From an uncultured Blastocatellia bacterium (GTDB lineage: Bacteria > Acidobacteriota > Blastocatellia > Chloracidobacteriales > Chloracidobacteriaceae): 37,752 bases of DNA. Of this stretch, positions 19,246 to 37,567 are shown in pieces; position 1 is the stretch's first letter, and every line of letters begins with the position of its first letter. The stretch lies in contig CALGZC010000068.1 of assembly GCA_937934745.1 (NCBI GenBank), positions 1-37,752 on the forward strand, in the 5' to 3' direction. The translations under genes were made by a program, and so were the position numbers. Below the pieces are notes generated by a model. It was not told the DNA's origin. It saw only the letters and a program-made list of their open reading frames with translations, and ran no database searches.

Positions 19246-19357
19246 ACGCCGGCAGTCGCCGCCGCGTGCGCAGGGTCACGTCATCCGATTCGACAGCGCT
19301 TACCGACGAACCAGGCCGCCGAGAGCGCCTCCGCCGGCTCCAGCACCGTGCCGGTGG

Positions 19358-19633
19358 TCATCTCCTGCTTGTCGGCGGATAGCCATGCGTGCGCAGGATG
19401 CACTCGACCAGCACGCGTAGATGGGTCCGCGCGCTCTCGGGCTGCGTCCGGTCAATGGTGACATTGGCGCGGACGGCGGCGACAAGCTCACGCGCGATGG
19501 GGCGCAGCGTCGCATTGCCCAGCACCTTCACCGCGCTGTCGTTCGTCTCCAGGGCGTTGTAGAAGGCCAGCTCGTCCTCGGTGAGGCCGAGTTGCTCGCC
19601 GCGAGCGGTGGCTGCGCGCATCTCCTTTGCCCT
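19358..19633 (-). pseudogene. hsdR: C-terminal fragment of a type I restriction enzyme R subunit
   Basis: About 90 residues, including RGEQLGLTEDELAFYNALET, NDSAVKVLGNATLRPIAREL and a final YPPTSRR, match the very C-terminal helical region of HsdR proteins (EDE-x-AFYDAL, VTIDW, KYGYPPD in the family). The helicase and nuclease domains are absent. It is in frame with the transposase remnant that precedes it on the same strand, but that fusion looks like an accident of insertion or deletion. Several consensus residues have drifted (VTIDRTQ for VTIDW), as expected for a relic. Confidence 0.75.
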
Positions 19634-20258
19634 TAACAGGGGCAAGCGACCTTCCATAACGTGTCGAAACGATGACTCATTACAGCCGTCCCGAAACGGC
19701 ACGGCGTTGCTCAGGCGGGCGCGAGACCGGCGCATCCGACTCTGACCGAAACGCGCCTTGACCTGTTTGGCGCCGGCTTCGAGCGTCCCGTTGCCGATGG
19801 GCAAACCGGCAGCCTGAACGTCACGATAGTGCATGCGTTCGCGGCACGCTTCAGCCAGGCAGTCGGCAAGGGTGTTGACCTGTCCGTTATAGTGGGGTGT
19901 GCCGGATTGCCCAGGCCGCCCCTCGTCGGGCAGGCGCGCCCCCGGCAACACCAGGTCGCGCTCTAACCCGGCGCTGACCTGTCCCCAGATGCCCACAAGC
20001 GCCCGTCCAGAGGATACCGCCCCTGGCGCTGGTGTGGGTCGGAGTCGTATGCCCGCGTCTGGGATCGTTCCCCGGCGGGTCACGGTCGCCTTTTTTAGGT
20101 GCATCGGTATCTGCTGCGTTCCGTCGTTCTTCCGGGTGTTCGCGCCGTGTGCGCAGGAGGGCTTGACCGCTCCGCCGGGGTGCCTCCAGCACGCGGTCCT
20201 CAATATCCGTCAGGGTCGCGCCTTCGGTCTGATTCGCCTTATTCTGGCAGGGCGGCAA
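19634..20258 (-). pseudogene. Degenerate transposase, probably ISKra4 family
   Basis: The C-terminal part contains AAGLPIGNGTLEAGAKQVKAR followed by MRRSRARLSNAVPFRD. This resembles the conserved GLPIGSG-x-VE-x-x-x-K-x-VKAR block and following GMRW region near the end of ISKra4-type transposases. The N-terminal part (TEGATLTDIEDRVLEAPRRSGQALL, from 20258) is in another frame, so at least one frameshift lies around 19900-20000. No inverted repeats or target duplication could be placed. The element is dead and its 3' end now runs into the hsdR scrap. Confidence 0.6.
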
Positions 20259-20752: not shown

Positions 20753-23700
20753 ATGGGTTTCTACCACCCGACAACCGACAGTCGCGGGCTTCCTACCGGC
20801 AACAAACGCAATCTGACCTGCCGGCCGGCGGTCGCCGGCGGCTGTCAGGAAGATCATGGCACCAAACTCTATCGCCCCAGACCGGACATCGTGTTCATTT
20901 CGGCGTCGGACACCGAGCTGCGCCTGGTCGCCGAGGCGCGGCAACGGCTTCCACAGGGGTTTCCGGTCCTTGAAGTCCAAGCGGCGCGGGCGTTGCAGCA
21001 TCCGGCCGAACTGGACGCCTTCCTGGGCGGGATTGCGCCAACGGTCAAGCTTGTCATCGCGCGCATCCTGGGCGGCATCGCCTACTTTGCTAGGGGCTTC
21101 GACTGTCTCGCGCGGCTTCACCGCGACACCGGCTGCCACGTTGTTGCATTGCCCGGCGATAACCGTCCTGACGCGCTGTTGCTCGCACGCTCGACCGTCG
21201 GCGCGGATGTCGCCGAGGAATTGCTGGCGTACTGTGTGGCCGGCGGCGTCGAGAACTATGCCCAGGGGCTGCGTTATCTGTCCGACCGCCTGCTGGGGAC
21301 GGCATTCGGCTTTGCGCCGCCGCAGGCAGCGCCGCTGACGGGGCTGTACCATCCGCGGGCGACGGACCTAGAAGCGACGGCCCGGATGGCAGTCGCGGAT
21401 TTCCAGAACGCGTACTGGCGTCCCGGATGCCCGGCCATCGGCGTCGCCTTTTATCGCGCGTACTGGCAAAGCGGCGACCTGGCGGTTGTGGACGCGCTGG
21501 TCGCCGCGATTGAAGCGGCAGGCGGTAATGTCCTGCCGGTGTTTTGTTACAGCCTGCGCGATGACATGGAAAACGCCGGCGGTTTGCCGGAGCTTTTTGC
21601 GTGCTACTTCAGCGATAACGGCCGCCCGCGTGTCCAGGCCATCATCAGCCTGCTGAGCTATGCCCTGGCCGGACTGACGCACACGGAACGGTTGACGCTT
21701 GCCGGCGGTGGCGCAGCCGAGGCGCTTCAAAGGCTCGGTATCCCCGTCCTTCAAGCGCTAACCTGCGGCGATACGGTTGCCGCTTGGCGGGCGAGCGCGC
21801 AGGGACTCTCGCCGCTTGACGCCGCCATGAAGGTAGTGATGGCGGAATTTGATGGGCGACTGATTACGACCGTCGTCGGCGCCCGTGAATCCGACGCCGC
21901 CGGAGCGCGGCTGGCCGTCCTGCCCGAAGCCGCGGACGCCGTTGCGCGGCTCGCCGTGCGCTGGGCGCGCTTGCGCGACCTGCCGAACGCCGAAAAGCGC
22001 CTGGCCATCGTCCTGACCAACTTTGCCAACCGCAACGGGCGCGTCGGCAGCGCAGTGGGCCTCGATACGCCCGCCTCTGTGCTCAACATCCTCCGCGCGC
22101 TCCGGGATGCCGGCTACACCATTGACGACTTGCCGCCCAACGGGGACGCGCTCATGGCCGAGCTGCTGGCGCAAGGCGGTTATGAAGCGCCGGCGTTGTC
22201 CACCGAGCAAGCCGCGCGCGCTTGCGCCCACTATCGGGCGGAGGACTACTGCGCGTGGTTTGCCATGCTGCCGCCTGACAACCAGGTGCAACTCCGGGCG
22301 ACATGGGGCGAGCCGCCCGGGACGGTCATGACGGATGGCGTCACGGGGTACATTCCCGCGCGGCGCTACGGCAATGTGCTGGTGATGATTCAGCCCCCGC
22401 GCGGCTATGGCGACAACGTGCAGGCGCTGTACCACAGCGGGGAGCTTGTCCCGCCGCACCATTACCTGGCGGTTTACCGGTGGCTGCGCGACCACTTCGG
22501 CGCAGATGCCATCATTCACTGCGGGAAGCATGGAACGGTCGAGTGGCTGCCTGGGAAGGCGCTGGGCCTGTCCAATGCCTGCTATCCGCAGTTGGCGCTC
22601 GACGACACGCCGGTGTTGTATCCGTTTCTCATCGGTGATCCGGGCGAAGGGTTGCAAGCAAAGCGGCGGTGGCATGCCTGTGTCGTCAGCCACCTGCCGC
22701 CGCCGATCACGCAGGCAGAAGCCGACCGTGAAGGCGAACTGGCTCCACTCCAATCTCTCTTGACGGAGTTGGCCCGCGCCGAGCAGCTCGATCCGGAAAA
22801 GCGCCCGCTCATCGTTGACGCCATCTGGGAAGCTGTGGTCGCCGCGAACCTGCACCGGGACTTGGGCTACGAAAGCCGCCCGAGTGAGGGCGAGGTAGGT
22901 GTGTTCCTGAAAAAGCTGGACGGCTATCTCTGCGATCTGGGGGAAATACCGGTGCGTCACGGCCTCCATGTGTTTGGTGAGGCCCCGACCGGCGACCGGC
23001 TGATAGACCTGCTCTGGGCGCTGTCCCGGCAGGCGACACCACCTCGGCGCGGACTCCCGGCTGCGCTGGCCTGTGATTTGGGTCTGCCCGAAGACCTCTT
23101 TGACCGCTCCGGGGAAGAAGCCTGGCCGCCGGAGGCAACGCCGCCGTGGCTTGCAGTTTTCCAGGACGCGCCCATCACGAGCATTGGGCGGCTGCGGAGG
23201 GCGCTTGATGCGGCAGCACGGTCGCTGGTGCAGGCGCTTGTTGCGCACAACTTCAATCTGGCTGCCGTCGTGCTGCCGGTCAAGCCGCCCTCGGCCGTGT
23301 CAGATATGTTGACCCTGATCGCCTACGACATCGCGCCGCGCGTTCGGCGCGCAACCGATGAACTCACGCATTTGCTGGCCGGTCTGGAAGGTCGCGCTGT
23401 GCCGCCGGGTCCGAGTGGCGCGCCGACGCGCGGCCTGCCGGATATTCTGCCGACGGGGCGAAACTTCTACGCCGTGGACATCCGCGCCATTCCCTCGCCC
23501 TTTGCATGGCAGACCGGACAACGCCTGGGTGACGCGCTGCTGGCAACGTACGCGCAACAGCAGGGGCGTTTCCCGGAAGTGGTCGGATTGACCATCTGGG
23601 GAACCGCCACCATGCGGACGCAGGGTGATGACGTGGCCCAGGCGCTGTGGCTGCTGGGCGTCGAGCCGGTCTGGCAGGCCGGCAACCGCCGGATCGCCGG

Positions 23701-24691
23701 ACTCCGCCGGCTGCCGGTTGCGGAACTCAAGCGACCGCGGGTGGATGTCGTCCTGCGTGTCTCCGGCTTTTTCCGCGACGCTTTCCCGAATGTTCTGGCG
23801 CTGCTGGATGAAGCCGTCAACCTGGCCGCCGACGCCGACGAGCCTGCGGAATGGAACTATGTCCGCAAGCGTGTCCGGGCCGATGAGGCGCGTTACCTGG
23901 CCGCCGGCGTCGCCGCCGATGAAGCGCGGCAGCAGGCCCGCTTTCGGATTTTTTCCAACCGGCCCGGCGTCTATGGGGTGGGCATTTTGTCGGCCATCGC
24001 CGCAGGCGCGTGGGAAACGCGCGAGGATTTGGCGACCATTTACCTGCGCTGGAGCGGCTATGCGTATGCGGCCGGGGCGTACGGCGTGCCGGCCGCGGAG
24101 GCGCTCGCCACGCAGTTGGCTGCCTGTGAAGTCGCCGTTCAGAACCAGGACAACCGCGAGCACGACATTCTCGACAGCGACGATTACATGCAGTTTCACG
24201 GCGGGATGGCGGCGGCCATCCAGAACCTGCGCGGCGCAGCGCCGGCACTGCTGTTTGGCGATTCGGCCGATCCGGCGCACCCGCACGTCCGGACGCTTCA
24301 GGATGAACTGCGCCGCATCGTCCGGGCGCGCGTCACCAACCCGAAGTGGTTGCGGGCGATGCAGGAACATGGCTACAAAGGCGCGCTCGAAATGGCGGCA
24401 ACGGTGGACTACCTTTTTGGCTATAGCGCCCTGACGGGCTTGGTCGAGGACTGGATGTATGAGCGCGTCGCCGAGGCTTATTTGTTTGACGAGGCAACGG
24501 CGGAGTTTTTGCAGCGGAGCAATCCCTGGGCGCAGCGGGACATTGCGGCGCGCCTGCTCGAAGCCGCCCGCCGGGGCTTGTGGGCGCGCCCGCCGGCCGC
24601 GGCGGCGGCGCGGCTGGCGGCCATCCGGGCGGCAGCGGATGAGGCCTTGGCACGCAGACTGGAGGGGCAGACGTTATGCATGCGCGTATGA
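20753..24691 (+). CDS. cobN: Aerobic-type cobaltochelatase large subunit CobN
   Basis: This protein has 1312 residues, the usual size for CobN. It inserts cobalt into hydrogenobyrinate a,c-diamide together with an ATPase motor, in the cytoplasm. Family blocks: HGTVEWLPGKALGLSNACYP near residue 593, PVLYPFLIGDPGEG near 622, IPVRHGLHVFGEAPTGDRL near 728, GTATMRTQGDDVAQALWLLG near 951, FRDAFPNV near 1005, and EHDILDSDDYMQFHGGMA near 1136. The family also includes the BchH/ChlH magnesium chelatase subunit. The flanking BtuF-like, cobO and cobB genes favour cobalt. No cobS/cobT or chlI/chlD partner is in the window. The stop overlaps the next start by 16 bases. Confidence 0.9.
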   Translation: MGFYHPTTDSRGLPTGNKRNLTCRPAVAGGCQEDHGTKLYRPRPDIVFISASDTELRLVAEARQRLPQGFPVLEVQAARALQHPAELDAFLGGIAPTVKLVIARILGGIAYFARGFDCLARLHRDTGCHVVALPGDNRPDALLLARSTVGADVAEELLAYCVAGGVENYAQGLRYLSDRLLGTAFGFAPPQAAPLTGLYHPRATDLEATARMAVADFQNAYWRPGCPAIGVAFYRAYWQSGDLAVVDALVAAIEAAGGNVLPVFCYSLRDDMENAGGLPELFACYFSDNGRPRVQAIISLLSYALAGLTHTERLTLAGGGAAEALQRLGIPVLQALTCGDTVAAWRASAQGLSPLDAAMKVVMAEFDGRLITTVVGARESDAAGARLAVLPEAADAVARLAVRWARLRDLPNAEKRLAIVLTNFANRNGRVGSAVGLDTPASVLNILRALRDAGYTIDDLPPNGDALMAELLAQGGYEAPALSTEQAARACAHYRAEDYCAWFAMLPPDNQVQLRATWGEPPGTVMTDGVTGYIPARRYGNVLVMIQPPRGYGDNVQALYHSGELVPPHHYLAVYRWLRDHFGADAIIHCGKHGTVEWLPGKALGLSNACYPQLALDDTPVLYPFLIGDPGEGLQAKRRWHACVVSHLPPPITQAEADREGELAPLQSLLTELARAEQLDPEKRPLIVDAIWEAVVAANLHRDLGYESRPSEGEVGVFLKKLDGYLCDLGEIPVRHGLHVFGEAPTGDRLIDLLWALSRQATPPRRGLPAALACDLGLPEDLFDRSGEEAWPPEATPPWLAVFQDAPITSIGRLRRALDAAARSLVQALVAHNFNLAAVVLPVKPPSAVSDMLTLIAYDIAPRVRRATDELTHLLAGLEGRAVPPGPSGAPTRGLPDILPTGRNFYAVDIRAIPSPFAWQTGQRLGDALLATYAQQQGRFPEVVGLTIWGTATMRTQGDDVAQALWLLGVEPVWQAGNRRIAGLRRLPVAELKRPRVDVVLRVSGFFRDAFPNVLALLDEAVNLAADADEPAEWNYVRKRVRADEARYLAAGVAADEARQQARFRIFSNRPGVYGVGILSAIAAGAWETREDLATIYLRWSGYAYAAGAYGVPAAEALATQLAACEVAVQNQDNREHDILDSDDYMQFHGGMAAAIQNLRGAAPALLFGDSADPAHPHVRTLQDELRRIVRARVTNPKWLRAMQEHGYKGALEMAATVDYLFGYSALTGLVEDWMYERVAEAYLFDEATAEFLQRSNPWAQRDIAARLLEAARRGLWARPPAAAAARLAAIRAAADEALARRLEGQTLCMRV

Positions 24692-25593
24692 CTGCACGCC
24701 AGGTGGCCGCCATGGCAAGCGCTCTAGCTGCCTTGGCTGGAGCGACCGGAAGCTGTCAGCCGGGCGCGCCGCCGCCCCAAGGCGACAAAACGGCCGAGCA
24801 ATCGCCCGCGGCAAAGCCGCGCCGGGTCGTTTCGCTCTCCATCGGGACGGATGAGATTCTGTGCGCGCTGGTCGAGCCGGAGCGGATTGCAGCACTGTCG
24901 AAATATGCTCCGGACCCGGAGGCCAGCTACGTTGCGGAACCGGCCCGACAGATTGGCGTCTTCGTCGAGCGCGAGCCGGAGCAGATCCTGGCGCTCCGGG
25001 CCGACTTGGTGCTGCTGGCGCGCTATACCAAGGCCGAGCTACGGCAGGCCGTGGAGCAAACCGGGACGCCGACGCTCGTTGTCGAGGACTTTCGCTCGCT
25101 GGACGACATCGAACGCAACATCCACCGGATTGGGCGGGCGGTCGGCGAGGAAGCACGCGCCGAGTCGGTCATTGCCAACCTGCGCGCCAAGCTGGCGCAG
25201 GCGCGGGCGATGCTGCGTCCTGATCGGGTGGGCTGGCGGGCGCTCTATGTCATGCCGCCGCTCCTGGTCGCCGGACGGGAGACGATCACCGATGTCAAGC
25301 TCACAGCAGCCGGTTTACGTAACGCAGCAGCCGACGCCGGACTTCGGGGCCACGTCGCCTTCTCCCCAGAAGCCCTGCTCAACTTGGACCCGGACATAAT
25401 CTTTGTGGCTACCGGATTGGCCGCTGATGCAGGCTTTCGTGAGCGGTTACTCGGCAATCCGCAACTCAGGGCGTTGCAGGCTGTGCGCCGGCAGCGCATC
25501 GTCGCGCTGCCATCGCGGGCGCTGCGAACGGTGTCCCACCATGTGGCCGACGCCGTTCATGACATCACGCAGGCCGTCAATGCGCTTCCGTAG
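24676..25593 (+). CDS. BtuF-like periplasmic substrate-binding protein (cobalamin/cobamide uptake)
   Basis: This protein has 305 residues. The N-terminus (MTARQVAAMASALAALAGATGSC) looks like a lipoprotein signal with Cys about 27, though TGSC is an atypical lipobox. The rest follows the two-lobed helical-backbone binding proteins of the BtuF/FepB type: RRVVSLSIGTDEILCALVEPERIAALS, EPEQILALRADLVLLA, TPTLVVEDFRSLDDIERNIHRIG, and FSPEALLNLDPDIIFVATG. Corrinoid specificity is inferred from overlap with cobN. The permease and ATPase (btuC, btuD) are not in the window. It is convergent with the outer-membrane barrel gene, with 80 bases between stops. Confidence 0.85.
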   Translation: MHARMTARQVAAMASALAALAGATGSCQPGAPPPQGDKTAEQSPAAKPRRVVSLSIGTDEILCALVEPERIAALSKYAPDPEASYVAEPARQIGVFVEREPEQILALRADLVLLARYTKAELRQAVEQTGTPTLVVEDFRSLDDIERNIHRIGRAVGEEARAESVIANLRAKLAQARAMLRPDRVGWRALYVMPPLLVAGRETITDVKLTAAGLRNAAADAGLRGHVAFSPEALLNLDPDIIFVATGLAADAGFRERLLGNPQLRALQAVRRQRIVALPSRALRTVSHHVADAVHDITQAVNALP

Positions 25594-26349: not shown

Positions 26350-29300
26350 CTAGAAATCAATCCGCACTGCCAACTGGATGAAGCGTGGGTTGCTTCCAAA
26401 GGTCGCCTTGGGACGGTTGAAGAAACTGTCCGAGGCAATGGTAAACCGGTTGATCGCCGTGCTGGTCGAGTCAACCGGATTGACACCGTTGACCGAACCC
26501 GGCACGAACTGCGGGTGGTTGAAGGCGTTGAAGAAGTCGGCCCGGAACTGCGCCCGAATCCCTTCCGTGAGCCGGAAGTTCTTGCGGATAAAGATGTCAA
26601 AGTTGTTGATAGCCGGGACGCGCAGCGTATTGCGCCCGGCGGTCGCCAGCGCCCCCGGACCGGCCACGATGTACTGCGCATTGGGGTTGAGCGCCACGTA
26701 GGCCACCGTCGCCGGGTTGCCCAGCGGCACCGGGTTGCCAAGGGCATTGACGGCGCGGACGCCACTCCCCGTGCCGCGCTGGCCGTTCGGATTGAGCACC
26801 GTCCGGTCGCCGGCGTTGTCGCCGTTGAGGTTTGAATCGACACCGCTGCGCGCAGTGAACGGCTTGCCGGTTTCGTAGCTGTACGTCCCCGAAATGCTAA
26901 ACCCGCCCAACAGCGAGCGCAGCCAGGGATTGGAGCTGTTGAGGAAAAACGGCAGATCATACGTGCCGGCAATTGTCAGGCGGTGAGTACTGTCCAGTAG
27001 GGACAGGGATCGCTCGGCGCGTAGATTTTGGAAGTCCTGCACACGCCGCGACGACAGCACGGTGCTGAACAGCTCTGCCGTTGTGTCGTCAATGAGCTTG
27101 CTGAAGGTGTAGGCCAGATTCACCGTGTAGTTTTGCGTCAATCGTTTCTGAACCTGCAACTGCAAGCCGTGGTACGTTGAGTTGCCGTTGGAAAGAAACG
27201 CCACCAGATTGCCGGCATTGAAGCCGGCCGCAGCAAACGCCGGCACAAAATTGGACCGCGCGGCAATGATCTGAGAAAGCGTCGGCAGCCCGGCGAGTTG
27301 GGACGGCGTCGGGTTGGCGAGGAACGTCGGCAGCGAGTTTTGCGGCGTGACGCGCGGCTGACGGTTGATCCGGTTTTGCGTCAGCAGATGGACGCCCCGC
27401 GTCCCGACGTAGCGCGTTTCAACGGCCCAGTCCTTGAAAAACTGGCGCTGTATGCCCAGAGTCCAGGTAATCGAGTAGGGCACCTTTTGGTCGGGGATCC
27501 ACGACGAGGTAATCGCGCGCAGCTCGGCCGGTGTCCCCGTCACCGGCGCCGGCGTCGGCGGCAGGCCGCCACCCGCCAGGAAGCCCGGCACGCCCGGCAC
27601 TTCGACATTGCGCGTCTGGTTAAACTGCGGCGGCAACGACAAGATGTACAGGTTGTCAAAAATAATGTCGTAGCCCATGGAGAAGCCGGCGCGAATCGAG
27701 CTTTCGCCGGGGTTGCCAAAGAGGCGGTTGAGCCAACCCGAAGAGAAATTCGGCGCGTAGGCCACGCCAATCACTGGGGCAAAGTTGGTGGTTTGCTCGG
27801 TCGGCGCGTTGAACGAAATCAAGCCCGGCACCGAGGCATCGCTGTTGAGCCGCTGCAGGCGCGCCGTGAAAGGCACTTGCTGGTAGGCATACCGGAAGCC
27901 GTAGTTGAACGTCAGCTCCGGCCGGATGCGCCAGCTATCCTGCGCAAAGCCGAAAAACAGCCACTGGTTGCCGTAGTAGGGCGACACGCCGACGGTGCGC
28001 TCGCCGAACTCAGGACTCAAATCGCGCAGAAATGACTCAGTCGCCAAATAGAAGTAGTCGCCGCGCTGCCGCTGGACAAAGGACTGCGGGGCAATCAGCC
28101 GCCGGGTGTCAATGCCGAACTTGAGCGTGTGGTTGCCGACCGTCCAGGTGACATTTTCGATGAGTTGGTAGTTGTTCTCGATGCCGAACTGCGGCGCGAC
28201 CGGATTCGGGCCGATGTTCACGCCCAAGTCATTGAGCTCAATGTTCGGAAAACTGTCCAGCCCGGGGTAGGGAATGTTGGGCACGGGAATGTCGTTGCGC
28301 GATCGGCGAAACGAGAAGCGAAACTCGTTGGTCAGGTTCGGCTGGATGGCGAAGATGTTGGTGTAGGAAAACAAGCGGCCGTCCACCGGAATATCAGTGA
28401 AGAACGCCGGCAGGCCCGCGCCGGTGTCGATCGCCCGGATGCGGTCGAAGATAAACCGCGTCCGGTGTGTCAGGCGGTCGCTCTGCACGAAGTCGAGGTT
28501 GAAAACAAAGTTCCGCTGGTTACTGAACGCAGGGCGCTGAATTGAGACAAACCCCACGGGAATGTTTTGACCAGCCACGACAACCGTCCCAGCAAGCGAG
28601 GGATCGGCGGTCGGCGCTGCCGGCAGGTACGTCCGCAGAATGTTCAGGTTGGTGGCCGACAAGCCGGGAATGCTTCCCAGGAGGCTATAGCCGGCCTGAG
28701 TCGGCGCAATGATGCCGCCGGCTGTGGCCGACGATCCGGTTTGCTGACCTTCGTATTGGGTGAAGAAAAAGAGCCGGTCCTTGACAATTGGGCCGCCGAC
28801 ATTCCCCCCGTAGCGCGAGTAGTCAAAGCGCGGTTGGGTGTTGCGGGTGATGCCCTGCTCTTTTTCCCGCACGCCAAGCGCATTGAGCTTGCGGTTTTGT
28901 AGAAAGAAGTACGCCGTACCATGGAAGGCGTTCGTGCCTGACTTGGTGACGGTGATGAACTGGCCGCCGTTAGAACGCCCGAACTCGGCGCCGAACTGGT
29001 TGGTGAGCAACGTAAATTCGGCGACGGCTTCCGGCGAGATGTAAATCTGCGGCCCGGTCACCGACTTATCGTTGTTGTCAATCCCGTCGACTGTGAAGTT
29101 GTTATTACGTGGCCGCTGACCGCCGACCGAACCGCCCGTCCCAACGCCCAAGCCGCCGCTGCTCGATACACCGGCCGACGTGAGCGCCAGATTGTAGATG
29201 CCGCCGGGGACGGTTGTTTGACCGAGTTCGACCACCTGCCGCGCTTCATACGAACGGGCCAGATCGTTGGAGCTGGTTTGGACCAGGCCGGCGCCGGTAG

Positions 29301-29691
29301 CTGTGACCTCAATGATGTCGGTTGTACCACCGGTCTCTAACTTCGCCGTCAAGTCGGTCGTCCGGTTGAGCTCGACGCGAACATCGGTAAAGCGCAGGGT
29401 GGCAAAGTTGGGCGCCTCAATCTTGACTTCGTAGAGACCCGGCGGCAGGTTGACCAACAAAAACTCGCCGTTCTCACCGGACTGCGTTGTGGTGACTTTG
29501 TTGGTCTGCTTGTCTGTGAGCGTAACCTTGGCGCCGGCGATGACGGCACCGGTTGGGTCCTGAACAATGCCACGCAAGTTACCGTTTGTGACCTGTCCGA
29601 AGTTGTTTATTGTGAAAAGCCCGATCAGTGCCAGCAAGAGCGCTGCCCAGTGCGCCCGGCGCTGATTGACCTCGGGATGGCGTGTTTGCAT
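26350..29691 (-). CDS. Large TonB-dependent receptor with N-terminal carboxypeptidase-regulatory domain
   Basis: This protein has 1113 residues. The signal peptide (about 1-32) is followed by a carboxypeptidase-regulatory-like domain (about 36-120: GNLRGIVQDPTGAVIAGAKVTLTD ... GLYEVKIEAPNF), a plug (about 125-260, with NNFTVDGIDNND and GAEFGRSNGGQFITVTKSGT) and a barrel that ends in Phe (FIQLAVRIDF). This is the Oar-like architecture expanded in acidobacteria, often linked to oligosaccharide or unknown ligands and distinct from BtuB. The ATG is preceded by GAGGAC seven bases upstream. Its place between the BtuF-like gene and cobO suggests corrinoid uptake, but the family alone does not show this. 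Confidence 0.9.
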   Translation of the reverse strand: MQTRHPEVNQRRAHWAALLLALIGLFTINNFGQVTNGNLRGIVQDPTGAVIAGAKVTLTDKQTNKVTTTQSGENGEFLLVNLPPGLYEVKIEAPNFATLRFTDVRVELNRTTDLTAKLETGGTTDIIEVTATGAGLVQTSSNDLARSYEARQVVELGQTTVPGGIYNLALTSAGVSSSGGLGVGTGGSVGGQRPRNNNFTVDGIDNNDKSVTGPQIYISPEAVAEFTLLTNQFGAEFGRSNGGQFITVTKSGTNAFHGTAYFFLQNRKLNALGVREKEQGITRNTQPRFDYSRYGGNVGGPIVKDRLFFFTQYEGQQTGSSATAGGIIAPTQAGYSLLGSIPGLSATNLNILRTYLPAAPTADPSLAGTVVVAGQNIPVGFVSIQRPAFSNQRNFVFNLDFVQSDRLTHRTRFIFDRIRAIDTGAGLPAFFTDIPVDGRLFSYTNIFAIQPNLTNEFRFSFRRSRNDIPVPNIPYPGLDSFPNIELNDLGVNIGPNPVAPQFGIENNYQLIENVTWTVGNHTLKFGIDTRRLIAPQSFVQRQRGDYFYLATESFLRDLSPEFGERTVGVSPYYGNQWLFFGFAQDSWRIRPELTFNYGFRYAYQQVPFTARLQRLNSDASVPGLISFNAPTEQTTNFAPVIGVAYAPNFSSGWLNRLFGNPGESSIRAGFSMGYDIIFDNLYILSLPPQFNQTRNVEVPGVPGFLAGGGLPPTPAPVTGTPAELRAITSSWIPDQKVPYSITWTLGIQRQFFKDWAVETRYVGTRGVHLLTQNRINRQPRVTPQNSLPTFLANPTPSQLAGLPTLSQIIAARSNFVPAFAAAGFNAGNLVAFLSNGNSTYHGLQLQVQKRLTQNYTVNLAYTFSKLIDDTTAELFSTVLSSRRVQDFQNLRAERSLSLLDSTHRLTIAGTYDLPFFLNSSNPWLRSLLGGFSISGTYSYETGKPFTARSGVDSNLNGDNAGDRTVLNPNGQRGTGSGVRAVNALGNPVPLGNPATVAYVALNPNAQYIVAGPGALATAGRNTLRVPAINNFDIFIRKNFRLTEGIRAQFRADFFNAFNHPQFVPGSVNGVNPVDSTSTAINRFTIASDSFFNRPKATFGSNPRFIQLAVRIDF

Positions 29692-30038
29692 AGGAATTGT
29701 CCTCAGAAGCTCTTGTTGCTGAAGTCGCCCCGAGAGGGGTTGTTTACAATGAATTCACAGAACATTAACGCAAATTGCATACCAAATTGAGTTATCACGC
29801 TAAACATCGCATATACAGTATGTTAGTCAATTGCCACCGGGTCGCTTGTTCAAAAATTTGAAGGCGGGTTTATTTTTTTGACTGATTTTTTTACGTACGC
29901 CGGGCTGCCCGCCCCAGTGCAGAACATTCGTAGGGGCGCAGCATTGACGCCGCTCACGACTGACCTGCAAGATGGCGGCTGCGAGTCGCCGCCCATAGGA
30001 CACGGAAAGTCAGCGCCTTGCCCCCGTGACAAACGCCG
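29692..30038. other. 347-bp divergent intergenic region, AT-rich in its left half
   Basis: It should hold the promoters for the TonB receptor (minus) and cobO (plus). The stretch 29750-29900 is much more AT-rich than its surroundings and has two T-runs near 29870-29892. I could not assemble a cobalamin-riboswitch core in either orientation. GGGCTGCCCGCCCCAGTG near 29903 is only superficially similar to one part of it. Confidence 0.5.
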
Positions 30039-30686
30039 ATGACAACCCCTAAGCCACCAACTGCGCCGGTCGCCGCCGACCAACCGGATGCTGACGATGC
30101 CCGCCACCGGGCGCGCATGGCTCGGAAAAAGGCGCTCCAGGACGCCCGCATCGCGCAGGCGACACGGGAAAAAGGGCTGATTATCGTGCATACCGGGCCG
30201 GGGAAGGGGAAAACCACGGCGGCGTTAGGGATGGTCTTTCGGGCGCTTGGCCACGGCCTGCGGGTCGCCGTCGTCCAGTTTACCAAAGGCGCTCGAACAA
30301 GTGGCGAAGCCAACTTCGCCCGCGAACTTGCCGGACGGGTGGACTTTTTCGCGCTTGGCGAGGGTTTCACGTGGGAGACCCAGGATCGCGAGCGCGACTG
30401 CGCCGCCGCCGCCCGCGCTTGGGAGAAAGCCTGCGAGCTGATGGCCGACCCCCGTTACAGCCTGGTCGTCTTGGACGAGCTCAACATCGTTTTGCGTGAC
30501 GATACCCTGCCGCTGACAACGGTCCTGGAGGCGCTCCATCACAAGCGCCCGGAACTGCACGTCGTCATCACCGGACGCAGCGCCCGCCCGGAACTGATCG
30601 AGCTGGCCGACCTCGTGACTGAAATGAAACTTGTCAAGCATCCCTTCCGTGCCGGGGTCCGGGCACAGCCCGGTGTGGACTTCTAA
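30039..30686 (+). CDS. cobO: Corrinoid adenosyltransferase CobO/BtuR type
   Basis: This protein has 215 residues. It transfers the 5'-deoxyadenosyl group of ATP to the cobalt of cob(I)yrinate a,c-diamide or other corrinoids in the cytoplasm. The P-loop GPGKGKTT (about 53-60), preceded by QDARIAQATREKGLIIVHTG, is the family signature. VVQFTKG, LVVLDELNIVL and HVVITGRSARPELIELADLVTEM follow in the usual order. The N-terminal 28 residues are a polar extension. It heads the plus-strand cobO-DUF1874-cobB group. The ribosome-binding site is weak. Confidence 0.95.
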   Translation: MTTPKPPTAPVAADQPDADDARHRARMARKKALQDARIAQATREKGLIIVHTGPGKGKTTAALGMVFRALGHGLRVAVVQFTKGARTSGEANFARELAGRVDFFALGEGFTWETQDRERDCAAAARAWEKACELMADPRYSLVVLDELNIVLRDDTLPLTTVLEALHHKRPELHVVITGRSARPELIELADLVTEMKLVKHPFRAGVRAQPGVDF

Positions 30687-30757
30687 CGGAGTTACGCAGC
30701 CGCGTATTGTCCGCGTGTTGTCTTGGTAGCGCGAGCTGCCCTATAAGTAACTCGGTT
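30685..30757 (+). promoter_or_regulatory. Long stem and promoter-like boxes directly before the DUF1874 start
   Basis: AACGGAGTTAC (30685-30695, over the cobO stop) can pair with GTAACTCGGTT (30747-30757) with one mismatch, and the right arm ends at the base before ATG 30758. Inside it, GCAGCCGCG (30696-30704) pairs with CGCG and GCTGC (30730-30739) with one bulged A. Alternatively TTGTCT (30718-30723), an 18-base spacer and TATAAG (30742-30747) form a promoter whose transcript would begin within a few bases of the ATG. No Shine-Dalgarno sequence exists. Confidence 0.45.
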
Positions 30758-31102
30758 ATGGAGCCACGCTGCCTGTCACTGATCAACGCCAGTATCCTTA
30801 CCGCTTACGGACTCTACCGTTACGAGCCGCTGACCGTTGAGGGAGCCCGGCGACTGATTGCCCAAAGTCAATCCAACGGCGTCCGGCTGCGGTCGGCTGT
30901 CGGCCACACCGCAACGGCAAGCTTGCTGACGCGGCTCCTGGGTGTTGAAATACCGGTCAACCGCATTGCCATTGCCCAGCAAGTCGGGGAACAGGCCATT
31001 GTCTTTCGCTTAAACAGCCGCCCGCCGGAGGGCGCGATCTTGTCTGAGCCCGAACTTGAAGCCATCGGCTATGAACTCGGCTTGCTGACCAGGTTAGAGT
31101 AG
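30758..31102 (+). CDS. DUF1874 protein, putative cyclic-oligoadenylate ring nuclease (AcrIII-1/Crn2-like)
   Basis: This protein has 114 residues and matches the DUF1874 (STIV B116-like) family over its length: LSLINASILTAYG at the N-terminus, SAVGHTATASLLTRLLG, VPVNRIAI, VFRLNSRPPEG and EAIGYELGLLTRLE. Characterised members degrade cyclic tetra-adenylate and so switch off type III CRISPR signalling; viral forms are AcrIII-1, cellular forms Crn2. His50 in VGHTAT fits the catalytic His47 of SIRV1 gp29, and R88 and E91 fit R85 and E88 (recalled numbering). ATG 30758 is chosen because the conserved N-terminus starts there. It sits between cobO and cobB with gaps of 71 and 62 bases, unlike the overlapping genes elsewhere. 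No CRISPR array or cas gene is in the window. Confidence 0.85.
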   Translation: MEPRCLSLINASILTAYGLYRYEPLTVEGARRLIAQSQSNGVRLRSAVGHTATASLLTRLLGVEIPVNRIAIAQQVGEQAIVFRLNSRPPEGAILSEPELEAIGYELGLLTRLE

Positions 31103-31107
31103 CCGGC

Positions 31108-31123
31108 GCCGCCCTCGGGCGGC
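31108..31123 (+). repeat. Perfect 7-bp GC hairpin between DUF1874 and cobB
   Basis: GCCGCCC and GGGCGGC are separated by TC, six bases after the DUF1874 stop. A second GGCGCC dyad flanks it. There is no T-run, so it would be an RNA stabiliser or attenuating stem and not a standard intrinsic terminator. Confidence 0.5.
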
Positions 31124-31164
31124 AGCGGCGCCGCCAGGGTTGACGCCAGGTTAGGGAAGTCGTC

Positions 31165-32565
31165 ATGCCATCGAATGTCCCGCGCCTCATCATCGCCGCG
31201 CCGTCCAGCGGCAGCGGGAAAACGACCGTGGCCGCCGGTCTGATGGCCGCCTTTGTACAGCATCTGCGCGTTCAGGGTTTTAAAGTCGGCCCGGACTACA
31301 TTGACCCCATGTATCACGCGGCCGCGACCGGCTGCCCGGCGCGTAACTTAGACGCCTGGATGCTGCCACCGGCAGTGGTCCGGCGGAATTTTCTGCGCGC
31401 CGCCGCGCCGGTCCAGTTGAGCCTCATCGAAGGCGTGATGGGGCTCTTCGACGGGTTCGGCGCCGACCCGCTCGAGGGCAGCACGGCGCACATCGCCCAA
31501 CTGTTGGACGCGCCGGTGGTCTTGGTTGTGGATTGCGCCCGTATGTCGGTCAGCGCCGCCGCCGTTGTCCACGGCTTTCACACGTTTATGCCAAAGGTCA
31601 ATATCGCGGGCGTGATTTGCAACTACGTCGGCGGCGAGCGTCACGCCGCGTGGCTGCGCGAGGTCATCGAACGCTATGGCCTCCCGGTGCTGGGCTGTCT
31701 CCCCAACCTACCCAACCTCACCGTTCCAGACCGTCACTTGGGCCTTCTAACGGTTGCCGAGCGACCGCAGGAAACGCGGCGGTTTCTAGCCGCCGCGCGG
31801 GAGGCCATGGCGCACTACCTAAACTTGGACCAGTTGCTCGCCCTGGCGCAGGCCGCCCCGCCGTTGCCCCTCGACGAGCTTGAGGACATCACGCCCTTTG
31901 TGACCGGCGGCCATCCGCCGACACGCATCGGCGTCGCCCGCGACGAGGCTTTTTGTTTCTACTATGAGGACAACTTCGACGCCCTGCGCCGTCAAGGGGC
32001 GGAAATTCTCTACTTTAGCCCCCTGCACGACGCCGCGTTGCCGGACGGCGTCGCCGGCTTGTACTTCGGCGGCGGCTACCCTGAACTCTATGCCGAGCCG
32101 CTCAGCGCCAACGCCGTCATGCGCGCCGCCGTCGCAGAGGCCCACCGGCAGGGGATGCCGATCTACGCCGAGTGCGGAGGATTGATGTATCTCACGGAAG
32201 CTATCCGCGCGCCGGACGGCCGCCTCTGGCCGATGACGGGACTGCTCCCCGGCCACTGCCGTCTCAGCGAGCGGTTGACTATGGGCTACCGTGAAGTCGC
32301 GCTGGCGCGCGATGGGCTGCTGGGCGAGACTGGACGCCGCCTGCGCGGACACGAGTTTCACTACTCGGATTGGGAGAACCACCCCACGGACTGCCCGGCC
32401 TACGAAGTTCACCCGCACGGGGGAAGGGAAACGCCGTACCCGGAAGGTATTGCGCGGCGAAATCTGCACGCGAGCTATATTCACGTTCACTTTGGACAAG
32501 ATGAGCGACTTGCCGCCAACCTGGTCAACCGCTGTCGGGCCTGGCAGGCCGGCGTGACCGTGTAG
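31165..32565 (+). CDS. cobB: Cobyrinate a,c-diamide synthase (CobB/CbiA)
   Basis: This protein has 466 residues. It amidates carboxylates a and c of (hydrogeno)cobyrinate using ATP and glutamine. The N-terminal dethiobiotin-synthetase-like half has the P-loop APSSGSGKTT (about 11-20), FKVGPDYIDPMYH and NLDAWM. The C-terminal glutamine amidotransferase half has YFGGGYPEL and the nucleophile Cys337 in YAECGGLMYL, with GHEFHYS and a later His region (SYIHVHFG). With cobN present, the product or substrate is probably the hydrogenobyrinate form of the aerobic route. GGGAAG lies before the ATG. The gene converges on yjbQ with five bases between stops. Confidence 0.95.
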   Translation: MPSNVPRLIIAAPSSGSGKTTVAAGLMAAFVQHLRVQGFKVGPDYIDPMYHAAATGCPARNLDAWMLPPAVVRRNFLRAAAPVQLSLIEGVMGLFDGFGADPLEGSTAHIAQLLDAPVVLVVDCARMSVSAAAVVHGFHTFMPKVNIAGVICNYVGGERHAAWLREVIERYGLPVLGCLPNLPNLTVPDRHLGLLTVAERPQETRRFLAAAREAMAHYLNLDQLLALAQAAPPLPLDELEDITPFVTGGHPPTRIGVARDEAFCFYYEDNFDALRRQGAEILYFSPLHDAALPDGVAGLYFGGGYPELYAEPLSANAVMRAAVAEAHRQGMPIYAECGGLMYLTEAIRAPDGRLWPMTGLLPGHCRLSERLTMGYREVALARDGLLGETGRRLRGHEFHYSDWENHPTDCPAYEVHPHGGRETPYPEGIARRNLHASYIHVHFGQDERLAANLVNRCRAWQAGVTV

Positions 32566-32570
32566 GGCAG

Positions 32571-32993
32571 TTATTCACCGATGACTTTGACGAGCACCCG
32601 TTTCGGCCGGTAGCCGTCAAACTCACCGTAGAAAATTTGCTCCCACGGACCGAAGTCAAGCCGCCCGTTGGTAATCGCGACCACGACTTCGCGCCCCATG
32701 ATTTGGCGCTTGAGATGGGCGTCGGCATTATCCTCGCCGGTGCGGTTGTGGTGGTAGTGATTCGGATCAGGGTTGAACGGCGCGAGCTTCTCCAGCCAAA
32801 CTCCGAAATCATGGTGCAGACCGCTTTCGTCGTCGTTGATAAACACGCTCGACGTAATATGCATGCTGTTGCACAGCACTAGCCCTTCCTTGACGCCGCT
32901 CCGGCGGACAATGGCTTCCACCTGGGGCGTGATGTTGACGAACCCCATTTTCGACGGAATGTTGAAAGTCAGGTATTCGGTTAGCGATTTCAC
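32571..32993 (-). CDS. yjbQ: YjbQ/UPF0047 family protein
   Basis: This protein has 140 residues, the normal length. Conserved features: [67 protein letters not shown] and [13 protein letters not shown], with the clustered His/Asp/Glu residues of the family's active-site pocket. Members show weak thiamin phosphate synthase activity in complementation tests, but the natural role is not settled. It faces cobB and is not part of its operon. Confidence 0.92.
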
Positions 32994-33179
32994 GGCTGCG
33001 ATGCTCCTGGAAAGGTTGCCTCAAGAAGTCTCGCGTAGGAAGTCTTGTGACGAGAGCCTTCCATAGCCGGGCGCTTTTGAAAAGCAGGCCCGTCCGTTGC
33101 CACCGATGAGCGCGCAAAGCCTCGCCTCGGGCTCGTCCGCCGGGCTTTTTCAAGCCTGGGTTCGCCGCGGATGAGCGCT

Positions 33180-34259
33180 CTAGCGCCCCCCGCGCGCCGC
33201 CAGCGCGCCGGATGCCATCGTCGCTTGAAGGCTCGCCAGCCCGTCTCTGACCGTGGACACAAGCTTGGCTTGGGCGAACTTTTTCTTGAGGAAGCTAAAC
33301 TGACCGCCGAGTAAATCGGTCTGTATTCGCGCCGTGTAGGCGATTAGCGTTTGCGTTTGGCCGGTGGCGCTCGCGAAGGGGATTAGCTCGGCGATTACGA
33401 GGCCGGCTTCGGCGTAGTGGTTGGCGTACACCAGCGTCGAGGCGACGTAGGCCCGCTCGCCGTCGCGCCAGATGAAGATCTGGACAAGCGACGTGACCGG
33501 CTTCAGGTCGCCGTACTTCTGCACGGCCCAGTAGAGAAACGACTCGGCGCTCGCTTGCTGGTCTTGTCGCGGAAACTGCCGGAGCGCCTGACACAAGCGC
33601 GCCTGTCGCGGGGACAGGGCGGCTTGCTCGGAAAAGAGCGCCGCGTAAGCCGCCTGCGCATCCGAGCAGGCGCGCTTGTCGGCGTATGGCGGGAGGCCAG
33701 ACTGTCCCTGGGCGGCGTAGGCCAGCGCCCGCTTCCACAGCATTTGCCGGTAGATTTCGGCGAGCGATGACCGGGACGCCTGCGCGCCATCCGAGCTGGG
33801 CGTCTGCAGGCGCTTGATCTCGGCTTCGCAGAGCTTGACGCTTGAATCGCCCAGCCTGGCGGCGCGGAGTTCGGCGACCGTTTCCGTGCTGACCGGCAGC
33901 GCCGCGACATCCGCTAAGTCGGGCGTTTGGCGAAAGCGGCCGCAGGCCACAACGCTCCCGCCCAGGCGAATCGCGTCGAGCGACCGGTACATCGCCAACA
34001 GGTCGGCAGGCGCGGCGCTTATGACGGCTAAGCCCTGGGCGGCGATGACCCTAGGCGGCGCGGTCGCGAGCGGACGCGCCACGATGCCGCCGGATTCGAG
34101 CGCGGCGAGTTCAGATGACTGGAGATTGAACTCCGTCAGGCCCGTCAGCGCGGCGCGCGTCAGCTCGGCTGACGTTGGGCGAGGCGATGCGACCGGCCAG
34201 ATCAGCAGCAGCCCGATGAGCCAGCTTTGTGCCCAACTGCGCCGGCTGATTCGCCGCAT
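33180..34259 (-). CDS. Exported hypothetical protein
   Basis: This protein has 359 residues. AAGGAG lies eight bases before ATG 34259, a strong ribosome-binding site. The N-terminus (MRRISRRSWAQSWLIGLLLIWPVASPRPTSA) is a signal peptide. The mature part is Ala/Leu-rich and helical, with three Cys spread over it (VACGRF, KLCEAE, KRACSD) plus RLCQAL. The second half contains FIWRDGERAYVASTLVYANHYAEAGLVIAELIPFA. No family is recognised. A short stretch of its signal-peptide coding region recurs near 35215 (listed separately), which suggests a lost paralog. Confidence 0.7.
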   Translation of the reverse strand: MRRISRRSWAQSWLIGLLLIWPVASPRPTSAELTRAALTGLTEFNLQSSELAALESGGIVARPLATAPPRVIAAQGLAVISAAPADLLAMYRSLDAIRLGGSVVACGRFRQTPDLADVAALPVSTETVAELRAARLGDSSVKLCEAEIKRLQTPSSDGAQASRSSLAEIYRQMLWKRALAYAAQGQSGLPPYADKRACSDAQAAYAALFSEQAALSPRQARLCQALRQFPRQDQQASAESFLYWAVQKYGDLKPVTSLVQIFIWRDGERAYVASTLVYANHYAEAGLVIAELIPFASATGQTQTLIAYTARIQTDLLGGQFSFLKKKFAQAKLVSTVRDGLASLQATMASGALAARGGR

Positions 34260-35368: not shown

Positions 35369-37567
35369 CTACGGGCGGCCAATCCAATTCCCGACGACCG
35401 GAAGGTCGCCTGCGTTGCCGTAGTTGAACGACAGATCGGCGAAACCGGCACTCAGTTCATTCTTCAGGAAAAATCGCCAGCTCCCCTCGACAAGCCGGAC
35501 AATCCCAATCCCCTCACGGCCATCCCCGTTCCAATCTCCAGCAAAAGGGATGTCATCCGTCAAACCGTAAAAAAACGTCGCTTCCGCAACCGAGGACAAT
35601 AGATCGTTCCGGTAGTAGAAAAAGCCGTTCGTCCGGCGGTAGCAGCCAACCGTCGTCGTCCCATTCCCATCCCAGTCACCCACAACCGGGGTATCCGTCC
35701 CCAAGCCAAAGTTGACAACCACATCCGGCGCACCGGCGCTGTTCGTGTTACGCAGGAAAAAGACGCCATTCCGAAAGATACCGATGGTATCACGACCGTC
35801 GCCATCCCAGTCGCCCGCCAGGGGAATATCACCGGGCGCACCAAACGAAAACGACACATCGGCAAAGCCGGCACTGTTGCTGTTACGGAGGAAAAACGTC
35901 CCTAACCCACTGACGATACGGAAGATACCGATGGTCGTCGTCCCGTCGCCGTCCCAGTCCCCGGAAAGGGAGATGTCATTCCCCTGCCCGAAGAAAAACG
36001 CCGTGTCGGCATCACCGCTCGTCAGGCTGTTGCGTAAGTAGAAGAAGCCGTCTGATCGGCGAAACAAGCCGATGGTTTCAAGGGCCGAAACAGCTTGAAT
36101 TACCGTGACGGCACGCCCCGCAACCGTGATCATCCCGGTGCGCTGCCGCCCACGGTGCGCTGCTACACGATAGGTTACCGTCCCGTTCCCGACGCCGGAT
36201 GCGCCGCTCAGGATGGTGATCCACGGCACATGACTGACCGCTTGCCACACACAGTCACCGGCAGCCGTTACCGTCACCACGCCTTCCCCACCTAGCGCGG
36301 AAACGTTGACCGTCGGCGGCGTCACTGCCGAGGCACAACCCGGAGCATCGCCTAGTAAACGGACAATGCCGGCGTGCGGCACGCCGTTGAACGTAGCAAA
36401 GACCCCACCAACCACAGGCTTACCATCCATCTGCAGCGCCAGCGCATACACGGCGCTGCTTGCTCCGCTTCCGGGATCAAAGCCCGTATCGAGCGAGCCG
36501 TCCATCGGGTTGAGACGGGCAATGCGGCTACGGGCTGCGCCGTTGACCGTTGTGAACTCACCGCCGATCACAATGCGCCCATTGGGCTGTACAATAAGGG
36601 CATAGACATCAGGGAGCAAACCACCGGCAACGCCCCCGAACGCACCGAACGTCGCATCTAGTGCTCCATTCGGTTCTAGGCGCGCCACACCTCCACGCGC
36701 CACGCCACTAATAAAACGAAAGGCGCCGCCGATGAGAATGCGGCCATCGGGCTGGACGCTCAGCGTGTTCACAACCCCGTCGTTATCACCGCTTTGTGAG
36801 AAGGTCAGGTCAAGTGCGCCATCAGCCGTCAGACGCGCCAGCCGACTGCGCAGGACACCGTTGACCTGCGTAAACGCGCCACCAAGCACAATGCGTCCGT
36901 TGGGTTGGATGGCTAGGGCAAAGACAGCACCGTTGGCGACCGCATTGGGGTTGAAACCGGCATCCAACACACCATCGGCGGTCAGGCGTGCAAGACGCTC
37001 GCGGCGCTGGCCGGCAAGGTGGCTAAAATCCCCTGCAACCAACAGTTTGCCATCCTCCTGCCGCGCCAGGGCATAGACGATACCGTTGCTGTCCGTTTCG
37101 GCGGCAAAGGTTACATCCGGCAAGCCGTCGGCATTGAGCCGGGCCAGGCTACGGCGGAGCACACCGTTGACGCTTGAAAATGCGCCGCCGATGACAATCT
37201 TGCCATCCGGTTGCAGCAACATCGCTTCAATACGGCCGTTGACGCCGGCACCGAGACCGAACACGGTATCGAGCGAACCGTCAGGATTGAGGCGGGCAAG
37301 GTTGTTGCGGGGAACGCCGTTGACGGCCGTAAACTCACCGCCAATGACCAGCTTACCGTCGGGCTGAACGGCGATGGCATACACCGCACCGGTGACACCG
37401 CTGCCTGGGTTGAAATTCGGATCAAGTGCCCCGGCCTGGGCAAAGGCAGAGCCTGCGGTCAAGCCGAGCATCACTACCAATCTCAACAGGCTGCACCACC
37501 AATAGTGCTGTAACAGCGGCACCGGTTTGCGTAAACCTCGCAGGTGTACATTATCACACACTAGCAT
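35369..37567 (-). CDS. Large secreted repeat protein: delta-60 repeats, BACON-like domain, FG-GAP-like repeats
   Basis: This protein has 732 residues. A signal peptide at about 23-44 (CSLLRLVVMLGLTAGSAFAQ) is preceded by about 20 polar residues. Residues about 48-410 hold seven delta-60 repeats of some 52-55 residues, each with a core like AVQPDGKLVIGGEFTAVNG followed by LARLNPDGSLD. A BACON-like all-beta domain follows (about 425-500: CVWQAVSHVPWITILSG ... GMITVAGRAVTVIQ). The end carries five units with a core like GDWDGDGTTTIGIFR, the Asp/Gly-rich calcium-loop style of FG-GAP/VCBS repeats. It is probably a cell-surface or secreted beta-propeller protein. The role is unknown, but adhesion or carbohydrate binding is plausible. 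Confidence 0.87.
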   Translation of the reverse strand: MLVCDNVHLRGLRKPVPLLQHYWWCSLLRLVVMLGLTAGSAFAQAGALDPNFNPGSGVTGAVYAIAVQPDGKLVIGGEFTAVNGVPRNNLARLNPDGSLDTVFGLGAGVNGRIEAMLLQPDGKIVIGGAFSSVNGVLRRSLARLNADGLPDVTFAAETDSNGIVYALARQEDGKLLVAGDFSHLAGQRRERLARLTADGVLDAGFNPNAVANGAVFALAIQPNGRIVLGGAFTQVNGVLRSRLARLTADGALDLTFSQSGDNDGVVNTLSVQPDGRILIGGAFRFISGVARGGVARLEPNGALDATFGAFGGVAGGLLPDVYALIVQPNGRIVIGGEFTTVNGAARSRIARLNPMDGSLDTGFDPGSGASSAVYALALQMDGKPVVGGVFATFNGVPHAGIVRLLGDAPGCASAVTPPTVNVSALGGEGVVTVTAAGDCVWQAVSHVPWITILSGASGVGNGTVTYRVAAHRGRQRTGMITVAGRAVTVIQAVSALETIGLFRRSDGFFYLRNSLTSGDADTAFFFGQGNDISLSGDWDGDGTTTIGIFRIVSGLGTFFLRNSNSAGFADVSFSFGAPGDIPLAGDWDGDGRDTIGIFRNGVFFLRNTNSAGAPDVVVNFGLGTDTPVVGDWDGNGTTTVGCYRRTNGFFYYRNDLLSSVAEATFFYGLTDDIPFAGDWNGDGREGIGIVRLVEGSWRFFLKNELSAGFADLSFNYGNAGDLPVVGNWIGRP

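Follow-up and report, generated by a model that had tools for sequence, protein, structure and literature searches.

The protein encoded between cobO and cobB in the contig analyzed here is very probably a cyclic tetra-adenylate (cA4) ring nuclease of the Crn2/AcrIII-1 type, judging by its family, predicted fold and catalytic His, from which we infer its chemistry. The gene is a resident of the genus and not a recent viral stray, since it occupies the same locus in five of seven genus genomes and is under strong purifying selection. The most likely reading, which we hold with moderate confidence, is that of a stand-alone cA4 ring nuclease acting as a trans off-switch for type III-B CRISPR in the genus. 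The window, meaning the whole stretch of DNA that was analyzed, is an entire contig of 37,752 bases; its own genome is labeled G000 and the 114-residue DUF1874 protein is labeled P0001. Gene content suggests that the genus is Chloracidobacterium (Acidobacteriota).

The DUF1874 protein and its predicted active site

The gene and its key codons are located as follows:

30758..31102, + strand: DUF1874/PF08960 ring-nuclease-type protein, P0001, 114 aa (Pfam, structure search, family alignment)
30905..30907, + strand: codon of the predicted catalytic His50 (opposite His495 of Marinitoga Csx1-Crn2 in the alignment; Ala at this position in 8y7g)
31019..31030, + strand: codons of Arg88 to Glu91, R-P-P-E (kept across the DUF1874 family)

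The coordinates and translation given for this 114-residue ORF in the original prediction were correct; an in-frame TTG at 30707 provides an alternative start that would add 17 residues. DUF1874 membership was confirmed with the PF08960 profile, which matched residues 7-107 of P0001 over profile positions 2-101 of 101 with 92.4 bits (cut-off 26, E 2.1e-26). PF08960 was the sole Pfam family matched by the protein, and P0001 was its only match in the 3.29 Mb genome. No match to known B12 families was found (PF08960 alone in Pfam, none in NCBIfam). The PADLOC 'Csx16' model PDLC01147 also matches P0001, at 1.1e-26; the labels in PADLOC may therefore not keep Csx16 and Crn2 apart.

Both of the blocks named as hallmarks are present, SAVGH with H50 and R88-P-P-E91, and among aligned family members H50 is found in 33/33, R88 in 33/33 and E91 in 32/33. 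We take R88 and E91 to be the active-site Arg and Glu, equivalent to R85/E88 of SIRV1 gp29. The 33 members come from our own collection and include one pair of identical rows; they were counted without L048 (79 aa, His block deleted) and without L050, L055 and L069, which repeat counted members or were never treated separately. L048 (1489-1728, - strand, in genome G263) is a Crn2 gene that has type III RAMP genes at a distance of about 3 kb and has lost the catalytic-His block through an internal deletion; judged from its sequence, it should be a naturally inactive Crn2 member.

A phmmer search of the PDB gave AFV3-109 (2j6b) at E 4e-15, together with STIV B116, Marinitoga Csx1-Crn2 and 2x4i (SIRV1 ORF 114a), and the viral anti-CRISPR entry 6scf moved from E 0.19 by phmmer to 4e-8 with a profile of seven homologues. 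The AlphaFold monomer model of P0001, made with a 20-row alignment, has a mean pLDDT of 90.3 and has the AcrIII-1/Crn2 fold. With this model, Foldseek gave TM scores of 0.82 to 2j6b and 0.84 to 8y7g, and the 17 hits at probability 1.00 were all chains of entries already found by phmmer. VIA-align returned Z scores of 17.3 for 2j6b (104 residues), 15.9 for 8y7g, 15.1 for 6scf (106 residues) and 13.2 for the SIRV1 entry 2x4i; the top unrelated chain reached only 3.3. H50 aligns with H495 of Csx1-Crn2, as expected for the claimed catalytic His, and 8y7g, titled an H495A mutant, differs from His exactly at this column. In PMC7293037, Csx1-Crn2 H495A shows no cA4 degradation, and PMC7213978 calls SIRV1 gp29 H47A inactive. 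By homology with relatives described in PMC7293037 and PMC7371418, a P0001 dimer would take up cyclic tetra-adenylate, and His50 would act as general acid, with no metal, to yield linear di-adenylates.

A B12 gene block kept in the genus

The genes surrounding P0001 are:

20753..24691, + strand: cobN, first gene of the block (Pfam PF02514; tblastn in four relatives)
24676..25593, + strand: periplasmic binding protein, second gene of the block, which we take to be BtuF-like (Pfam PF01497; tblastn)
26350..29691, - strand: outer-membrane beta-barrel receptor with a carboxypeptidase-regulatory domain (Pfam PF25183, PF13620)
30039..30686, + strand: cobO, ATP:corrinoid adenosyltransferase, block copy (Pfam PF02572, 6e-64; 71 nt upstream of DUF1874)
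31165..32565, + strand: cobB-type gene with CobB/CobQ glutamine amidotransferase and CbiA domains (Pfam PF07685, PF01656; 62 nt downstream of DUF1874)
32571..32993, - strand: UPF0047 protein past cobB that remains adjacent to the block, presumably YjbQ-type (Pfam PF01894; tblastn)

The predicted position between cobO and cobB was thus verified by Pfam for both neighbors, and the cobO-DUF1874-cobB order is kept in 5/7 genus genomes. When the window proteins were searched by tblastn, the order cobN-btuF-cobO-DUF1874-cobB was found in all four relatives with DUF1874 and so, with G000, in 5/5; the stretch from G003 stops inside cobN, and only the end of that gene is covered there. The two genus genomes that lack DUF1874, drafts that are 85% and 95% complete, lack the block cobO and cobB alike. 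Of ten family genomes searched, cobB was found in the same five as DUF1874, and so was the block copy of cobO; a second cobO, 42-47% identical, is present in 7/7 genus genomes. The gene content around this core varies. The receptor is inside the block in G000 and G003 and is not in the stretches from G006, G005 and G001; two CsgG-like genes on the opposite strand separate DUF1874 from cobB in G006; G005 and G001 carry an extra ORF downstream of cobO and ahead of DUF1874 (in G005, Pfam identifies it as a methyltransferase); and a short remnant, which we interpret as antitoxin-like, precedes cobB in G003. In G005 the DUF1874 stop is 6 nt from a GTG that we interpret as the cobB start.

Transcription of DUF1874 together with cobO and cobB is probable, given strand and spacing. 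A promoter and terminator scan of 29600-33100 gave no excess over shuffles. At the Rfam gathering score, neither a cobalamin riboswitch nor any other element was found in six sources totaling 115 kb (G003 being covered only from inside cobN). Three other features of the sequences are recorded here. The G006 cobB (L026; G006:C2:529730-531093) matches in two pieces near the C-terminus, a possible frameshift. Window positions 18817-20203 hold a weak partial BioY match (+ strand, sub-cut-off in Pfam) and the C-terminus of a HindI-type restriction subunit (PF11867, - strand), remnants that suggest an old insertion upstream of cobN. At 8077-8126 there is a perfect intergenic 25-nt tandem duplication.

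Between G000 and G003, DUF1874 shows a dN of 0.10 at a saturated dS of 1.8, compared with 0.11 at 1.26 for cobO and 0.19 at 1.05 for cobB; its constraint equals that of cobO and exceeds that of cobB. The gene in G000 has neither frameshift nor stop. These values bear on the suggestion in the original prediction that the gene might be a stranded viral anti-CRISPR, which is disfavored by the shared locus, the purifying selection and the lack of a recognizable viral gene among the neighbors scanned. An old phage AcrIII-1 could still have landed in the block and been domesticated or stranded there, kept by chance or for a benefit to later phages, and the family is indeed common in viruses: P0001 is matched by 48/50,697 phage records, the best of which (Fusobacterium phages, 50% identity) falls within the 39-52% range of acidobacterial relatives outside the genus. 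The tree (32 rows, without the truncated L048, without L050 and L055, which are the L047 and L046 proteins, and without L069 and L070, considered duplicates of L068; row set A3 was without L059 and L068-L070) is compatible with a viral or a cellular origin. Support was 96/95 for the genus clade; for the acidobacterial clade linked to type III, which also contains L052, a cas-free stretch by BLAST, it was 98/95. Holding the genus clade together with the type III-linked acidobacterial Crn2, a group defined after tree inspection, gave an AU p of 0.318, which neither supports nor rejects the arrangement. However, of eight neighboring proteins compared with PHROGs, only those at 33180-34259 (E 4.9e-4) and 35369-37567 (E 2.7e-36) matched, both to families of no known function and to no named phage gene; no match was obtained for cobO, cobB or the remaining four, and the window locus does not lie in a virus or prophage. 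With one locus in five genomes and purifying selection also against it, we consider a phage origin of this kind unlikely.

Recruitment to bind an adenosylcobalamin intermediate had also been proposed; the stable gene linkage agrees with this proposal, but sequence and fold give nothing in its favor. More broadly, co-option of P0001 for a CRISPR-independent role, for example on an adenine nucleotide tied to corrinoid adenosylation, would explain why DUF1874 stays in the B12 block and is intact after the decay of the Cmr genes described below. Consistent with such a role, the block order is kept in 5/5 genomes, with dS high or saturated and with changing inserts and flanks, the G005 gene comes within 6 nt of cobB, and DUF1874 is missing jointly with the block cobO and cobB in two genomes. 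On the other hand, the active-site residues are all conserved, the closest folds to the model are those of cA4 enzymes, no cob neighbor was seen by eye in the ORF lists of eight scanned loci, the window and the stretches of the four relatives (G003 upstream of cobN excepted) show no cobalamin riboswitch, and operon order may persist without common function. We therefore regard co-option as improbable, both as a role for P0001 and as the explanation of its persistence.

Type III CRISPR in the genome, the genus and the phylum

The statement that no CRISPR lies nearby holds for the window contig, which has no array-like repeat and to which no G000 match to Cas10, RAMP or PF09651 maps. A search for type III cas genes elsewhere in the genome identified one type III-B locus, on contig C59, and this locus is broken. 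G000 has one match to PF22335 (Cas10 palm) and three to PF03787 (RAMPs), all on C59, and P0001 is thus encoded apart from the type III locus of its own genome. Six G003 proteins (Cmr2, Cmr3, Cmr4, Cmr5, a fused RAMP and a CARF-HEPN effector, the C59 genes being named from position and family matches) each align with C59 in 2-4 pieces, with frame changes in the pieces and in-frame stops in several; 6/6 of the genes examined are broken. As a control, 13 G003 proteins match the window, and 11 of these align in a single frame with no in-frame stop, two of them with a second match taken as a paralogue; the exceptions are cobB, with one stop taken as its own end, and one ORF with 3 stops at 45% identity. 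We considered whether sequencing error had broken up the Cmr genes and rejected this, as the window control is mostly intact versus 6/6 split and GC is alike (0.601 vs 0.625). The sequence breaks on C59 are thus likely real decay rather than sequencing error, short of proof because C59 is a short draft contig.

For the substitution counts G005 served as the third sequence, and a codon was used only if its window was at least 45% identical. In five Cmr genes (1,953 codons), the G000 side had 163 unique amino-acid changes and the G003 side 78, compared with 187 and 150 synonymous unique changes, respectively (Fisher p 0.003). The corresponding G000:G003 counts of amino-acid changes were 10:10 for cobO and 3:5 for DUF1874. 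If DUF1874 had been released together with the Cmr genes, about 10 changes would be expected on the G000 side, compared with the 3 seen (rough Poisson P ~0.01); a direct Fisher 2x2 test of 3:5 against 163:78 gave p 0.12 on small numbers. DUF1874 is therefore likely still constrained in G000 after Cmr decay, and the contrast of 3:5 with 163:78 is what a CRISPR-independent role would also predict. The sole type III locus found in G000 being broken, P0001 could instead be a recent orphan with no current function, which served type III-B and has had too little time to decay; the modest excess of Cmr replacements, about 0.034 per codon, agrees with this. We think this very unlikely, as DUF1874 has fewer changes than expected by the Poisson estimate and carries no frameshift or stop.

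Other sources of substrate were sought in G000. The SMODS cyclase PF18144, which would indicate CBASS as another source of cyclic nucleotides, is absent, as is any PF09651 CARF protein. With the broken type III-B locus, these absences mean that no substrate source is known in G000; that of PF09651 is weak evidence, as CARF effectors of other kinds occur in G003 and G006, where PF09651 is likewise absent. No GATTGAAAC-type repeat arrays were found in G000, G001, G004 or G005, compared with 148 repeat pairs of this type in G003, 23 in G006 and 2 in G002, where they are a 14-nt tandem repeat. Since G001 and G005 have open Cas10 genes but no GATTGAAAC repeat, this pattern leaves room for arrays in G000.

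Among the relatives, G001, G003, G005 and G006 each have two PF22335 matches above cut-off and one below it, the latter in a frame of 762-790 aa taken as a GGDEF protein; G002 and G004 have none above cut-off. GGDD is kept in 8/8 of the above-cut-off Cas10 proteins, and CARF-type effectors of the CARF7, TIGR02710, TM1812/Csx1 and Csm6-like kinds occur in 7/8 of their loci, with none recognized in the L024 stretch. A Cmr locus lies on the same contig as DUF1874 at a distance of about 17 kb in G003 and about 20 kb in G006, the Cas10 proteins of the two being 69% identical, and the type III loci of G001 and G005 occupy the other contig. In G006 a repeat array of GGTTCATCCCCACGTGCGTGGGGAAC type with 61-nt spacing (L026:15902-18001) begins about 2.4 kb past cobB, placing CRISPR near the B12 block in one relative. 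Also in G006, the CARF protein encoded at L035:3909-5096 (- strand) is of the Csx1 type. Its best match in PADLOC is a family fused to a C-terminal 'CSX16' domain, which the protein itself does not have; G006 encodes DUF1874 elsewhere. DUF1874, the block cobO, cobB and Cas10 coincide in the genus (5/7 each), so the link to Cas10 is confounded there, and as the B12 block has the same pattern, co-presence of DUF1874 and type III genes within the genus lends weak support.

In a draw of 396 genomes from the phylum, DUF1874 was found in 7 and RAMP genes in 68, with 7/7 of the former among the latter (G003 lay outside the draw, and the RAMP genes of G000 were counted though its locus is broken). By genera, RAMPs were present in 4/4 with DUF1874 versus 46/206; Fisher p was 3e-6 for genomes and 0.003 for genera, with relatedness ignored. 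Three DUF1874 genes outside the genus lie at most 2.1, 3.2 and 3.4 kb from the closest RAMP gene among the matches listed, and one such gene overlaps a CARF gene by 4 nt; the L055 copy of that CARF protein matches PF09651. A scan of genome contigs for DUF1874 gave eight loci, L049-L056, of which L050 and L055 duplicate the proteins of G343 and G093. A BLAST comparison with 51 ORFs taken from the cas loci of the genus placed L049, L050, L054 and L055 next to type III genes and showed no type III neighbor for L051, L052 and L053; L056 adjoins a Cas_NE0113 protein. In two acidobacterial Cmr loci, the protein encoded just upstream of Crn2 (L050:7851-9914, 687 aa; L049:8657-9889, two ORFs) has no Pfam match, no PADLOC match for the L050 form and no homologue in the genus loci examined; it is a candidate accessory of type III signaling. 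The CARF-Crn2 neighborhood of L054, binned as Candidatus Parcubacteria, is nearly that of Pyrinomonas methylaliphatogenes (L055), which suggests transfer or mis-binning.

Of the roles proposed, that of a Crn2 acting in trans for a type III system located elsewhere in the genome fits the genus and phylum data best, but its partner in the window's own genome is a pseudogene cluster.

Proposed role of P0001 and comparison with known ring nucleases

As a trans off-switch, P0001 would act on type III-B loci elsewhere on the genome, and these loci would come and go while DUF1874 stays fixed between cobO and cobB. G000 would at present carry an orphan off-switch, intact and apparently constrained, whose sole type III-B locus found has decayed; the gene in G000 was either orphaned recently or has a second role. 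A stable B12 block and an intact gene beside a dead type III system make a role beyond CRISPR worth testing. As a tentative extension, a ring nuclease may have left its CRISPR locus to become a resident tolerance gene, borne by the B12 block and steadily made, that permits gain and loss of type III systems without cOA poisoning, outlives a dead one and possibly acts on an adenine nucleotide of B12 metabolism as well.

The significance of P0001 is that of a conserved host member of a ring nuclease family outside the reach of searches around type III loci. The ring nuclease survey PMC12409355 took proteins at most 6 kb from type III loci and reported Crn2 in 7 of them; with this radius, the DUF1874 gene of the B12 block would be missed. 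In a literature search that covered few subscription papers, no report was found that linked AcrIII-1 or a ring nuclease with cobalamin. Among the matches listed, no ring nuclease title appeared for Chloracidobacterium with CRISPR, and those on ring nucleases or cyclic oligoadenylate did not name Chloracidobacterium. The case also lets one ask, as a natural experiment, whether an off-switch persists longer than the system that it controls. If the predicted activity is true, the genus provides matched genomes in which type III is apparently working, broken or absent.

Several known systems resemble P0001. The DUF1874 protein of a Bacillus ICE is YddF; its family belongs to the same Pfam family as P0001, the Bacillus subtilis control gave a PF08960 match, and a Bacillus plasmid member is 32% identical to P0001 and differs in being plasmid-borne. 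Csx16/Csx20, Crn1, Crn3 and Crn4 have a role to which that of P0001 can be likened, the cOA off-switch described in PMC12409355, but belong to other families, whereas P0001 matches PF08960 alone in Pfam. With the viral AcrIII-1 proteins (SIRV1 gp29, that of phage THSA-485A, and viral relatives such as AFV3-109), P0001 shares the fold and the conserved positions; it differs in being chromosomal at a conserved position, with 0/8 neighbors recognizably viral. With Crn2, including Marinitoga Csx1-Crn2, it has in common the domain, the fold, the catalytic His and the conserved Arg and Glu, but no type III locus adjoins it, its gene sits in a B12 block and it is unfused to Csx1. By membership, P0001 is a DUF1874 protein that is by position neither a Crn2 nor an AcrIII-1.
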